Assembly (NCBI RefSeq): GCF_900112935.1
Contig: NZ_FONM01000005.1
Location: 62,001 to 126,000, forward strand
Length of the DNA stretch: 64,000 bases
Direction of reading: 5' to 3'
Source of the DNA: Trichococcus pasteurii
GTDB taxonomy: Bacteria; Bacillota; Bacilli; Lactobacillales; Aerococcaceae
Positions 5,792-49,419 of the stretch are shown in pieces (position 1 is the first letter of the stretch; each line of letters begins with the position of its first letter). The notes under the pieces were generated by a model. The model ran no database searches. It had not been told where the DNA came from and worked only from the letters and a program-made list of their open reading frames with translations. Made by a program: the position numbers and the translations under genes.

Positions 5792-5849
5792 TTTGTCCGC
5801 AATACTGTTGGATTCCGGACAAAATGTAGGCGCTTAAAAGTGCTATAAT
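5792..5849 (+). promoter_or_regulatory. Promoter of the HIT gene with upstream inverted repeat
   Basis: TGCTATAAT at 5841-5849 is an extended -10. Upstream, TTTGTCCG (5792-5799) and CGGACAAA (5816-5823) form a perfect 8-base inverted repeat with a 16-base gap, which could be an operator or a weak terminator of the methyltransferase gene. Its function is inference. Confidence 0.4.
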
Positions 5850-5883
5850 GGACCGGAAGTATATTTCTAGGAGGTCTGTGTTT

Positions 5884-6306
5884 ATGAAAGATGAAAATTG
5901 CGCTTATTGCATGGAAGGCGAAATGGTGTTGGCTTTCGGATATCCTTGCTGCGAATTGCCTTACAGTAAAGTCTATGTTTTTAAAGAACAAAGCCACAAA
6001 GGCCGTGTGATTGTTGCATACAAAGACCACGTGAGCGAATTGGTGAACATCACGGATGAGGAGCGTAACGGCTACTTCGCGGATATCGCTACAGTTGCGA
6101 ACGCGTTGCACAAAGCCTTCAGCCCTGAAAAAGTGAACTATGGTGCTTACGGCGATACCGGCAAACACCTGCATTTCCACTTGGTGCCAAAATACAAAGA
6201 CGACGCCTTCGAATGGGGCTCGACTTTCGACATGAACCCAGGCCGCGTGACCCTGACGGACGATACGTACGAAGCATTGGCTGAACAAATCCGTACAAAC
6301 ATGTAG
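5884..6306 (+). CDS. HIT-family nucleotide hydrolase
   Basis: This 140-residue protein has the histidine-triad active site HLHFHLVPK (His95, His97, His99) and an N-terminal CAYCMEG pair that often binds zinc in HIT proteins. Family members hydrolyse or transfer nucleoside phosphates such as dinucleoside polyphosphates in the cytosol. The start at 5884 follows AGGAGG; an upstream in-frame ATG at 5848 overlaps the -10 element. The TAG stop codon is also the first triplet of a tandem structured repeat, the same arrangement seen after argS. Confidence 0.85.
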   Translation: MKDENCAYCMEGEMVLAFGYPCCELPYSKVYVFKEQSHKGRVIVAYKDHVSELVNITDEERNGYFADIATVANALHKAFSPEKVNYGAYGDTGKHLHFHLVPKYKDDAFEWGSTFDMNPGRVTLTDDTYEALAEQIRTNM

Positions 6307-6427
6307 AGAGCGTGATGATTCGCGGGAGGGGATGAGCACTAAGAGGATATTACGAGAACAGCCGCTTTTTGGCTGTGACGTAATGTCAGCTTAGGCGGAA
6401 TCCCCTGCGAATCAGAACGCGTTTAAG
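6304..6427 (+). repeat. Structured repeat unit A
   Basis: The unit begins on the TAG stop of the HIT gene and folds into one long interrupted hairpin. Helices, outer to inner, are GCGT 6310-6313 with ACGC 6417-6420; a GA/GA tandem mismatch; TGATTCGC 6316-6323 with GCGAATCA 6407-6414; AGGGGAT 6327-6333 with ATCCCCT 6400-6406; CTAAG 6339-6343 with CTTAG 6390-6394; ATTACG 6349-6354 with CGTAAT 6379-6384; and CAGCC with GGCTG around GCTTTTT. The internal-loop strings GAGCACTAAGAGGA and TGTCAGCTTAGGCGGA recur nearly unchanged in unit C at 42.4 kb. I do not recognise a named family. Confidence 0.8.
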
Positions 6428-6549
6428 TAGAGAGCGTGATGATTTGCGTTTAGACACCCGTACGTTGGAGTAATCGGCTGCCGTTCACCTCTTTTGTGGA
6501 CGACAGCCGATTGCGAAACGGCAGTGGTGTCTGCAAATCAGAACGCGTT
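6428..6549 (+). repeat. Structured repeat unit B
   Basis: This second tandem unit starts with the same TAGAGAGCGTGATGA as unit A and ends with the same CAGAACGCGTTT. Its helices are GCGT 6434-6437 with ACGC 6543-6546; TGATTTGC 6440-6447 with GCAAATCA 6533-6540; AGACACC 6452-6458 with GGTGTCT 6526-6532; CGTT 6463-6466 with AACG 6517-6520; and ATCGGCTG 6473-6480 with CAGCCGAT 6504-6511. The helix sequences differ from unit A but pairing is kept, while the loop strings differ, so it is a second subtype. Confidence 0.75.
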
Positions 6550-6568
6550 TAGAGAGCGTGATGAATCC
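6550..6568 (+). repeat. Truncated third repeat start
   Basis: TAGAGAGCGTGATGA at 6550-6564 repeats the first 15 bases of units A and B, then the sequence breaks off into a terminator hairpin. The truncated last copy resembles the one at 42722-42739. Confidence 0.7.
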
Positions 6569-6574
6569 GAACTA

Positions 6575-6606
6575 AAAAAGCTGGCTCCAGGCGGAGTCAG
6601 CTTTTT
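6575..6606 (+). terminator. Terminator ending the HIT transcript and repeats
   Basis: AAAAAGCTGgCTCC pairs with GGAGtCAGCTTTTT around AGGC. It closes the transcript that would carry the HIT gene and repeat units. The 55 bases between it and the next gene show nothing else. Confidence 0.75.
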
Positions 6607-40308: not shown

Positions 40309-40336
40309 GATACAGATAGTAACCACATTCATTGAT

Positions 40337-40627
40337 GAAGAAAGTACTTCGAGCAATGTTCACAGCGAGCGGGGAAGGTGGAAGCCCGCAATGGAGCGAA
40401 GAAGGAAACGCACTTCAGAGAAAATGACTCGAAAACAAGCGCAGTCCTCTGTTCATCGGACAGATCGTAAGGAACGTTTGTGAGTAGCGTCATTCGGTTT
40501 AGCCCCGTTAGCGGTTCAAAAGGATAAACTAATCAGAGCCCATCTGTGTTGCTTTATCGAATTAGAGTGGTACCACGGATGTTCGTCTCTATTTTGCCAG
40601 GGCAGAATAGGGGCTTTTTTTATCGTT
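40337..40627 (+). promoter_or_regulatory. T-box leader of argS (Arg specifier CGC)
   Basis: The leader between the promoter and argS has the T-box sequence AGAGTGGTACCACGG (40564-40578), followed by a terminator CTATTtTGCC / GGCAgAATAG with a T run (40589-40620). Stem I closes with GAAG (40337-40340) and CTTC; the specifier loop holds AAAGTA on the 5' side and GGAAACGCA on the 3' side, which places the specifier codon CGC (Arg) at 40409-40411. Uncharged tRNA-Arg should favour the antiterminator and switch argS on. Confidence 0.9.
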
Positions 40628-40713: not shown

Positions 40714-42411
40714 ATGGATTATAAAAAGATTGTTGCTGAAGAGATTCAAAAGCTGGTACCGGAGCATTTAAGCTACGACCAAGTGTACCAATTGCTGGAA
40801 GTACCCAAATATGCAGAACACGGGGACGTTGCATTTCCGGCATTCGCACTGGCGAAAGCACTGCGCAAAGCACCGCAAGCAATCGCCGGAGATTTGGCGG
40901 CACAACTGAACCATCCTTACATTGCGAAGGTGGAAGCAGTAGGCCCGTACGTCAACCTTTTCCTTGAAAAAGCAGCCGTTACAAATGCAGTCCTGCATGA
41001 AATTGCTGCCGAGAAGCATGCATTCGGAACAGCCGATATCGGCAAAGGCGGCAATGTTCCGATCGATATGTCCTCGCCGAATATCGCGAAACCGATCTCG
41101 ATGGGCCATTTGCGTTCAACAGTAATCGGAAATTCTTTGGCCAACATCATGAAAAAAGTCGGCTTCAACCCGATCAAAATTAACCACTTGGGCGACTGGG
41201 GAACGCAATTCGGCAAGTTGATCGTCGCCTACAAATTGTGGGGCAATGAGGAGAAAGTCAAAGCTGAGCCGATCAACGAATTGCTGACTCTGTACGTGCG
41301 TTTCCATTCGGAAGCAGAAACAGACGATACTTTGAACGACGAAGCCCGCGCCTGGTTCAAGAAATTGGAAGACGGCGATGAAGAAGCTTTGCATCTTTGG
41401 GAGTGGTTCCGTTCCGAATCGCTGCAGGAATTCATGAAAATCTACGATATGTTGGGGATCACGTTCGATTCCTTCAACGGCGAAGCTTTCTATAATGACA
41501 AGATGGATGAAGTCGTTGAGCTGTTGGACAAAGCCGGCATCCTGACCCAGGACCGCGGAGCAACCATCGTCGATCTGGAAAAATACAACTTGAATCCGGC
41601 TTTGATCAAGAAATCGGACGGCGCAACGCTGTACATCACCCGCGACTTGGCTGCGGCGATTTACCGCAAACGCAATTATGATTTTGCGATGTCCCTGTAT
41701 GCAGTCGGCAATGAGCAAAGCAATCATTTCAAACAACTGAAAGCCGTATTGAAAGAGTTGGGCTACGACTGGGCAGAAAACATGCACCACATCCCATTCG
41801 GTCTGATCACGCAAGGCGGCAAGAAACTGTCGACTCGTCAAGGGAAAGTCATCCTGCTTGAGGAAGTACTGAACGAAGCGACCGAGCTTTCCTTGAAACA
41901 GATCAACGAGAAGAATCCGACTCTGGAAGACAAAGAAGCAGTCGCCAAAGCAGTCGGCATCGGCGCCGTCGTTTTCCATGACCTGAAAAATGACCGTCTG
42001 AACAATTTCGACTTCGATTTGGAGGAAGTCGTGCAATTCGAAGGCGAAACAGGCCCATACGTACAATACACAAATGCACGCGGCTTGAGCATTTTGCGCA
42101 AAGCGGCAGTCGAACTGGACACGACCGAAGCTGCTGATCTTGGTTTGGATGACGCGTACGCATGGGAAGTCGTGAAACTGTTGAACAGTTTCCCTGAAAT
42201 CATCCAACAAGCCTACGAAAAATTCGAGCCATCGGTGATCGCGAAATACACGCTCCACTTGTCCCAAGCATTCAATAAATATTACGGCAACACAAAAGTG
42301 CTGGTAGAAGACGATAAACGCAACGCCCGCCTGGCATTAGTCCAATCCGTAGCCACAGTCCTGCAAGAAGGCCTAAGACTCCTAGGAGTCCAATCCCCAG
42401 AAAAAATGTAG
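40714..42411 (+). CDS. argS: Arginyl-tRNA synthetase
   Basis: ArgRS charges tRNA-Arg in the cytosol. The 565-residue class I synthetase has the N-terminal Add-1 domain (1-100), the HIGH-type motif [17 protein letters not shown] (about 118-134), the KMSK-type motif KKLSTRQGK (about 370) and the DALR anticodon-binding domain at the C-terminus ([19 protein letters not shown]). Regulation is by the upstream T-box. Its TAG stop is the first triplet of structured repeat unit C. Confidence 0.96.
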
Positions 42412-42530
42412 GATGAGATGATTCGCGGTTAGAGTTCGAGCACTAAGAGGACAAACACAAAGCGGACGCTTTTTGTCCGCGTGTGGTTGTCAGCTTAGGC
42501 GGAGAACTCTGCGAATCAGAACTCGACTAT
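42409..42530 (+). repeat. Structured repeat unit C
   Basis: The unit starts on the argS TAG stop. Helices are TGATTCGC 42419-42426 with GCGAATCA 42511-42518; AGAGTTC 42431-42437 with GAACTCT 42504-42510; CTAAG 42443-42447 with CTTAG 42494-42498; CAAACAC 42452-42458 with GTGGTTG 42483-42489 (one mismatch); and GCGGAC 42462-42467 with GTCCGC 42475-42480. The loop strings GAGCACTAAGAGGA and TGTCAGCTTAGGCGGA match unit A, while the second and fourth helices have changed on both strands. Confidence 0.8.
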
Positions 42531-42721
42531 GTAGAGCGAGATGAATCCCGCTCTAGGAATCGAGCACTAACGAAATTTAGGAACAACCAGCCTGGTTTTG
42601 GCTGGATGGGCCTAAATAGCGTTAGGCACTCAAACGTCACAGTGCGACGTTTGAGGTCTTTCGCAATGTTTGTGCTGAACCTAATGACGCACCGTTTGTT
42701 AGGGATTCAGAACGCGTTTGC
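42531..42721 (+). repeat. Structured repeat unit D, enlarged and branched
   Basis: The unit starts GTAGAGCGAGATGA and ends CAGAACGCGTTT like unit B. The outer helix is TGAATCCC 42542-42549 with GGGATTCA 42702-42709. Inside are GAGCACTAACG, a hairpin with CTAACG/CGTTAG, ATTTAGG/CCTAAAT and CCAGCC/GGCTGG (42567-42625), and a second perfect hairpin CTCAAACGTC/GACGTTTGAG (42629-42655). It is about 70 bases longer than A-C. Confidence 0.7.
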
Positions 42722-42739
42722 GTAGGATGAGATGATTCG
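42722..42739 (+). repeat. Truncated repeat start, exact copy of 42408-42425
   Basis: GTAGGATGAGATGATTCG occurs exactly at 42408-42425 and again here, 314 bases later, then passes into a terminator. The arrangement matches the truncated third start at 6550. Confidence 0.85.
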
Positions 42740-42761
42740 TCCTTCTTCAAAATCAAAACCG

Positions 42762-42795
42762 CCTAAAATTATGCATATAGTTTTAGGTTTTTTGA
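42762..42795 (+). terminator. Terminator ending the argS transcript and repeats
   Basis: CCTAAAA pairs with TTTTAGG around TTATGCATATAG, followed by a T run. Between it and the CLC start at 42835 only the ribosome site AAGAAGGG is visible. Confidence 0.65.
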
Positions 42796-49311: not shown

Positions 49312-49406
49312 AAAAAAAGCTGATGACGGACTGCGCCTATTGCGCAGAAGTCATCAGCTTTGATAAGCGGTTTAAGCGATTGGCTAGGGGAGACATTCAT
49401 TCCCTC
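49312..49406 (-). promoter_or_regulatory. Candidate fluoride riboswitch (crcB motif) with terminator
   Basis: Read on the minus strand, AGGGA..UCCC forms the first helix, then UUAAACCGCUU-AUCA-AAGCUGAUGA follows, with GCUU/AAGC pairing, matching the crcB-motif core (AAACCGC..GCUGAUGA) as I remember it. A pseudoknot GAAuGUC/GACUUC between the first loop and the 3' end is possible. GCUGAUGAC is also the 5' arm of a terminator (GCTGATGAC/GTCATCAGC plus seven T) just before the ribosome site, the usual switch layout. The linker between the helices is longer than in examples I recall. Confidence 0.6.
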
Positions 49407-49419
49407 ATTTATAAATAAA

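Follow-up and report, generated by a model that had tools for sequence, protein, structure and literature searches.

A structure-conserved, probably mobile hairpin repeat behind argS in Trichococcus and in other genomes of the Lactobacillales

Two hairpin arrays in the window

The window analyzed here (the whole stretch of 64,000 nt from Trichococcus pasteurii) holds two arrays of long hairpins, one behind an open reading frame that we take to carry a HIT-family name and one behind argS (Table 1). With a T-box upstream, argS has a likely regulated 5' leader in addition to its 3' hairpin array. The covariance model R1, built from twelve units of the window's own genome, scores unit A of locus 1 at 131.1 bits and unit 1 of locus 2 at 140.9 bits, both units having been part of the model's alignment, and unit B of locus 1 at 54.1 bits. 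Unit 1 of locus 2 is a hairpin with the loops GAGCACTAAGAGGA / TGTCAGCTTAGGCGGA; unit 2 is longer and branched, contains GAGCACTAACG and GGCACTCAAACGTC...GACGTTTGAGG, and at only 20.7 bits (E 0.12) is not significant alone. The solo left end that closes locus 2 reads as the remnant of an older unit, and similar terminal remnants are present at the argS sites of relatives. The hairpin that follows is likely to be the intrinsic terminator of argS, judging from its letters; the terminator detector did not flag it.

Table 1. Features of the window discussed in the text.
Feature	Position	Strand	Description or basis
TAG stop of ORF 5848..6306, gene upstream of locus 1	6304..6306	+	ORF
Locus 1 unit A	6308..6424	+	Left end GAGCGTGATGA, right end CAGAACGCGTTT; loop strings as in locus 2 unit 1
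Locus 1 unit B	6432..6550	+	Ends of unit A, other inner hairpin GCGTTTAGACACCCGTACGTTGGAG...GGTGTCTGC
Solo left-end remnant GAGCGTGATGAATCC	6554..6568	+	Sequence
Intrinsic terminator AAGCTGGCTCCAGGCGGAGTCAGCTTTTT, 3' of array	6578..6606	+	Sequence and terminator detector
T-box leader 5' of argS	40323-40593	+	RF00230, 95.7 bits
argS ORF	40714..42411	+	Name from earlier finding and upstream T-box
TAG stop of argS	42409..42411	+	ORF and sequence; its G is the first base of the unit 1 left end
Locus 2 unit 1 (earlier "unit C")	42411..42528	+	Left end GGATGAGATGA, right end CAGAACTCGACT
Junction spacer ATGTA	42529..42533	+	Same 5 letters precede the first unit (argS end ...ATGTA)
Locus 2 unit 2	42534..42719	+	Left end GAGCGAGATGA, right end CAGAACGCGTTT; another module type
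Spacer GCGTA and solo left end GGATGAGATGATTCGTCC	42720..42742	+	Sequence
Likely intrinsic terminator of argS, CCTAAAATTATGCATATAGTTTTAGG TTTTTT, 3' of array	42762..42793	+	Read from sequence
Fluoride riboswitch	49338-49413	-	RF01734, 41.9 bits

The first-pass annotation had described two loop strings repeated between the loci inside helices that differ, and this description is borne out: GAGCACTAAGAGG is exact at both loci (6334-6346 and 42438-42450), as is TCAGCTTAGGCGG (6386-6398 and 42490-42502), and the flanking helices have changed on both strands, from AGGGGAT/ATCCCCT at locus 1 to AGAGTTC/GAACTCT at locus 2. A covarying linker hairpin between units had also been proposed. Its letters, ACGC/GCGT and CTCG/CGAG, are present, but a separate conserved hairpin is not, as the pairing is explained by the matching unit ends; in the fold of locus 1 the linker ACGC pairs with the left end of its own unit, and the linker pairing wins in the fold of locus 2 only. 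Against shuffled sequences the folds have z-scores of -12.1 (locus 1) and -9.2 (locus 2).

Across the genome the first loop string has 12 exact sites, where about 0.1 would be expected in random sequence of even composition, and with one mismatch allowed there are 17 sites vs. 4 for the reversed control pattern. A genome-wide search of the kind that had been suggested for the paired strings finds the second (CTTAGGC plus three bases) within 70 bases at 10 of these 12 exact sites, each of the 10 having 6 or 7 of 7 helix positions matched (counting G-U as a match and using the best of four offsets), and the remaining two, L002 and L005, have a different right half. The strings are thus mostly paired and helix-flanked (10/12) and are not scattered without complementary helices.

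Architecture and distribution of the units

A typical unit is one long hairpin of ~110-120 nt with ends of about AGAGYGYGA ... RCRCGTTT. Left ends take the form GAGCGTGATGA, GGATACGATGA, GGATGAGATGA and similar, right ends CAGAACGCGTTT, CAGAGTTCGACT and similar, and the two are paired in many units, giving terminal inverted repeats that are short (a few base pairs). This end pairing covaries among the 12 own-genome units, with columns 13/121 read as GC in 8 and AU in 3, and columns 14/120 as UA in 8 and CG in 2. Three unpaired features recur within the hairpin, namely a basal tandem G-A, a bulge of 3-4 nt on the 5' side, and a central GA / NGA loop that adjoins GC-A-CUAAG / CUUAG-GC. Other units keep the ends around a different inner hairpin (as in unit B, 6432-6550, and in the branched unit, 42534-42719), and a solo left end usually follows the last unit of an array.

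Covariation is also seen within the hairpin. In a MAFFT alignment of the 12 own-genome units, 21 of the 39 pairs have changed on both sides. In an order-wide alignment of 60 rows (59 distinct), 95.1% of cells pair and two-sided changes occur in 39/39 pairs, compared to 36-41% paired for control structures slid by 1-3 columns, although these order-wide figures lean towards R1 because the rows were found with the model and fitted to it, as were alignments A2-A4. Pairs of G-U outnumber those of A-C in the helices by 132:26 and 96:20 (in fitted alignments, with one conserved closing G-U pair included), as would be predicted for folding of the sense strand.

The earlier suggestion of conserved loops inside varying helices also holds far outside the window. 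In 41 matches from outside the genus (one per locus) the loop letters are mostly kept. The central G-A persists in 90% and 93% of them and the A that partners it in 85%; for the basal G-A the figures are 88/83% and 76/85%, for the A-G beside the bulge 88/90%, and for the C of the terminal CGUUU 90%. When every column is counted, the most frequent letter reaches on average 0.64 at unpaired and 0.56 at paired positions, and not every loop column is conserved, as L090, L091 and L096-L100, for example, carry other central-loop letters. It seems reasonable to suppose that a putative protein or ligand grips the loops.

Several irregular structures accompany the arrays. One unit (L010) is a hybrid made of halves of two unit types. 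A second repeated module, GATGCACTGTG...CAAGTGTATCATGTCTCTAAGCGATTAAAATCG.AAGAGCCATGACAA, lies beside arrays at L010 (~1115-1215) and also at L004, L117 and L413 (in the last of these from its start alone), and looks like a satellite or partner element. Further short hairpin repeats in tandem stand beside the arrays of L002 (1200-1400) and L008 (1200-1420), with GAATCGGACAAGCGGAGAGCGAATG... and CCCGCCAAAACCTATTAGGCGGG. Collapsed units, in which the left end is joined to the right end or to a short stem, are seen in L122 (G060), L039, L115 and L432; by their sequence they apparently arose through hairpin deletion at short direct repeats.

The own genome has 30 matches to R1 at E<=10, 26 of them below 0.01. 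At E<=0.01 the model matches 27 of 76 genomes of the family, among them all 13 of the genus that were searched, with 8 to 39 matches each; at E<=0.001 with strict filters it matches 55 of the 395 genomes searched from the order, as well as 25 of 80 genera, and the other 340 genomes have no match at that setting. The genome G265, which appears to be "Lacticaseibacillus-like", has 88 matches at E<=0.01. In family f3 (that of G085, and probably Enterococcaceae) the strict filters and E<=0.001 leave 7 of 78 genomes with a match, at 1-3 copies each, and four of these have 3-7 copies at E<=0.01. Weak matches could be plain hairpins because R1 is mostly structure; ends and loops were read by eye in 19 distant loci and in 20 of 23 further ones, not all of which have all features. 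The first-pass picture of two regulatory loci is incomplete in that the family comprises tens of copies whose number and composition vary between relatives.

Names of carriers come from a pattern scan in which some loop letters were forced and which was kept out of the conservation figures (80 of at least 120 stretches); those among the matches listed include Levilactobacillus, Lactiplantibacillus, Ligilactobacillus, Companilactobacillus, Pediococcus acidilactici, Trichococcus patagoniensis and others. The T. patagoniensis contig can be aligned with a locus of the window's genome at 93% over 1.6 kb. A phage collection gave no match to the locus 1 array at E<=0.001, viral contigs gave none to the strict pattern, and plasmids gave none to locus 1 or to the f3 unit L205. 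A unit of G265 is matched by 15 plasmid records.

Placement at gene ends and turnover of unit sets

In the window's genus, arrays stand in sense orientation directly after stop codons, and this also holds for two of the three further genomes that were sampled. In G000, G071, G068 and G066 a same-strand stop codon lies within -20..+12 nt of 38 of 46 array heads, compared to 74 of 1638 random positions in the same loci (4.5%), where a stop was counted if it closed a same-strand open stretch of 80 codons or more and five array starts were skipped as not first. Three of the eight heads without a stop (L397, L408, L419) seem to follow an older unit. An earlier, cruder count gave 41 of 54 array starts, two of which were apparently spurious. 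In 16 of the 38 cases the stop is a TAG and the element begins on its G, and in 6 of 46 arrays an opposite-strand gene terminates at the right end.

In a wider window (-45..+14 nt), a sense stop lies upstream of 11 of 12 arrays in G361, 8 of 11 in G367 and 2 of 21 in G265. These arrays were read in 20 regions of G265 (88 matches), 10 of G367 (35) and 10 of G361 (23), the regions being taken from the best matches and one of 63 rows (L238, E 0.0048) being dropped. In G265 (L224-L243) the units have the left end AGTGAGCG and the right end GCGTTA, and several are antisense and directly 5' of a ribosome-binding site by eye, which is a different placement rule.

A terminator-like hairpin occurs within 150 nt downstream of 18 of 43 arrays and 4 of 129 control windows, in a test that took 43 of 54 array starts, includes one match that looks spurious (L421) and misses the argS terminator. 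The units are probably transcribed as part of 3' UTRs.

Comparison of related genomes illustrates how the content of single sites changes. The 3' end of argS was found in 12 of the 13 genus genomes, and in all 12, by eye, one to four units directly follow the TAG, about ten different unit sets being present; L110 has one unit type in common with L114, and L108 one with L113. A similar hairpin then follows the argS array in 11 of the 12 (by eye). At the ORF 5848 site, 11 genomes were read (L127 and L129 being left out of 13 loci); hairpin units are present in seven, one retains nothing but three solo left ends, and the other three are without units.

In syntenic stretches of five species, R1 units lie at four sites, a lower bound in that the model missed the ORF 5848 unit of G067 (L125), and each site is occupied in at least two species with none private (G000 and G061 have units at four sites, G068 and G071 at three, G067 at one). 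Sites therefore seem rather stable while their contents change, and the absence of private sites speaks for slow insertion at new ones. Among 32 units from three shared sites, the best match is at the same site in another species for 18, so that much of the unit content is inherited in place, and at a different site for 11, some of these labels being wrong (L420 is in fact the s32k site). Unaffected by this is one 95-nt unit that is identical at two sites of G071, argS and s32k. Junction spacers resemble the local flank, with a mean common suffix of 2.35 nt over 66 junctions vs. 1.41 permuted (maximum 2.02 in 2000 permutations), although the spacers are short (0-7 nt) and many of the arrays are orthologous and hence not independent.

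Plasmids allow comparison between much closer relatives, and 4 of 8 records were read in one set and 5 of 13 in another. In the first, pWX3 of Lacticaseibacillus paracasei carries two full units directly to the left of a collapsed unit. Plasmids ZY-1 and Lp02 (98.9% and 98.5% identical to pWX3 over the aligned pieces of a 1.2-kb query) carry the collapsed unit alone, and plasmid L1 p1 (95.5% vs. pWX3) carries one full unit. In the second set, two L. paracasei plasmids have different units at nearly the same base between two PTS genes, one of which recurs at this site in Pediococcus inopinatus, and in two plasmids of Lactiplantibacillus plantarum, which share 99.5% identity across the aligned pieces of a 0.9-kb query, a right-end remnant is all that is left. 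Collapsed units in both sets stand at short direct repeats, in the second set TGNGAGCG. As the plasmid pairs are nearly identical over ~1 kb, single units are evidently present, absent or replaced between very similar plasmids. No pristine empty site was found among the plasmids in a near-identical background, and since plasmids without units still carry solo ends they may be deletions, not ancestors; the direction of change is our reading of these comparisons.

Interpretation and comparison with known systems

The units are dispersed, their stems covary, their ends are fixed, and related species have different unit sets at the same site. We consider it probable that both loci belong to a mobile repeat of the MITE/REP kind, non-coding and conserved in structure, which has spread through the Lactobacillales. 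Tens of copies, variable in number and composition and placed in the window's genus at gene ends, are better explained by a mobile or recombining repeat than by a riboswitch-like regulator. In such a repeat the stems would be free to change, with the basal tandem G-A, the bulge and the central GA/NGA loop mostly kept, and a trans-acting protein may recognize the folded strand through these loops. New units would be added at the left edge of a resident unit, duplicating a few bases of the site, and older units would collapse to solo ends through hairpin deletion. Those lying between a stop codon and a terminator would form part of the transcribed 3' UTR, where they may shield or stabilize the mRNA.

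It is also important to consider a mainly host-useful 3'-UTR RNA element, in which a conserved RNA-binding protein would grip the loops and thereby control how stable the mRNA of the upstream gene is or how its 3' end is processed, mobility being incidental. We regard this as rather unlikely given that the number and type of units at one gene differ between relatives and that 340 of the 395 order genomes are without a match (E<=0.001, strict filters). The sense orientation directly behind stop codons fits it, yet only 2 of 21 arrays of G265 follow that rule and several there are antisense, 5' of a ribosome-binding site. It would also accord with the excess of terminator-like hairpins downstream, the G-U bias, the order-wide retention of the loops, and preliminary data, mentioned for the similar Efa elements, that they may enhance stability (PMC1590033).

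The mobile-repeat interpretation could be carried further, to a dedicated cassette system across the order whose protein-gripped, loop-recognized hairpins of folded RNA or ssDNA are delivered to stop codons (perhaps via the mRNA or the transcription bubble of the transcribed gene), stacked there and exchanged as 3'-UTR modules; this extension we judge to be decidedly improbable. Very improbable as well are hairpins acting as single-strand DNA recombination sites, similar to attC or to the targets of a Y1 transposase, with arrays that grow and reshuffle like cassettes: the units are folded hairpins with conserved extra-helical bases, fixed ends and tandem swapped modules, as this would lead one to expect, but they are without genes, and by eye their ends AGAGYGYGA / RCRCGTTT do not fit the R'/R'' boxes of integron attC sites (GTTRRRY / RYYYAAC). 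That old copies merely decay, slip in replication or convert one another with no dedicated machinery left is extremely improbable, since loop and end letters are kept order-wide and plasmids ~98.5-99% identical differ by two complete units beside a collapsed one, even though the collapsed units at short direct repeats, the hybrid unit L010, the shared sites with none private and the majority of best matches in place would agree with it.

Most bacterial MITE families are known from one species or genus. For the repeat favored here, one structure with largely the same loop letters can be traced from Trichococcus to many genera of Lactobacillaceae, with stems and modules turning over. In the window's genus the family tags ordinary genes, argS among them, at their 3' ends, and its stop-codon placement together with the plasmid pairs makes both the movement and the mRNA effect of protein-less hairpin repeats testable.

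With regard to known RNAs and repeats, no Rfam family matches either locus at its gathering score, and matches far below that score (such as trpB, snoRNA and miRNA families, E<=10 or E<=1) looked like chance, so that a riboswitch or other known RNA was set aside. A kink-turn was rejected as, by eye, Watson-Crick pairs and not tandem G-A follow the bulge, and a CRISPR array as the units, instead of being identical repeats, are hairpins that vary, and their spacers measure 0-7 nt. The family shares the broad traits of bacterial MITEs in that it is short, non-coding and dispersed in many copies with terminal inverted repeats. In the open-licence literature, as represented mainly by titles and abstract openings, we did not recognize it.

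BOX elements have a modular make-up. The hairpin family would seem to be set apart from them by its unit ends, size and loops. The BOX elements of Streptococcus pneumoniae are listed among multi-copy intergenic repeats (PMC2267715). RUP, ERIC, NEMIS and other MITEs are described as non-coding, with short terminal inverted repeats, often adjoining coding sequences and transcribed (PMC3733652, PMC2229807). The hairpin family is unlike RUP, ERIC and NEMIS in that its structure and loop letters are detected order-wide, its arrays consist of swapped modules, and its anchoring to stop codons is strong in three of the four lineages looked at.

EFAR elements of Enterococcus faecalis are built up from many sequence types and take stem-loops as insertion targets, and REPs of the GTAG superfamily go with RAYT transposases. 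Efa and EFAR would seem to be the same elements, and they are likened to the hairpin family by description, not by sequence. Efa repeats lie near gene 3' ends, with preliminary data that they may enhance stability (PMC1590033); EFAR/Efa are also listed among MITEs of 70-300 bp (PMC3733652), and a single table row, "Efa-1 163 65 (18)", can be read as length and number (PMC2267715). Hairpins of GTAG REPs stand at gene ends where the terminus often supplies a TAG stop (PMC3733652), which is similar to the G shared between TAG and unit in the hairpin family, whose GTAG is found at the argS and ORF 5848 loci and not at all sites. REPs, which are 20-40 bp long and form wider super-families, differ in size from our units of ~110-120 nt with several conserved internal loops, so that membership among the GTAG REPs was rejected. 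The nearest published kinds are nevertheless EFAR/Efa of Enterococcus and the GTAG REPs, and it is these that the hairpin family most closely resembles in the way it works.
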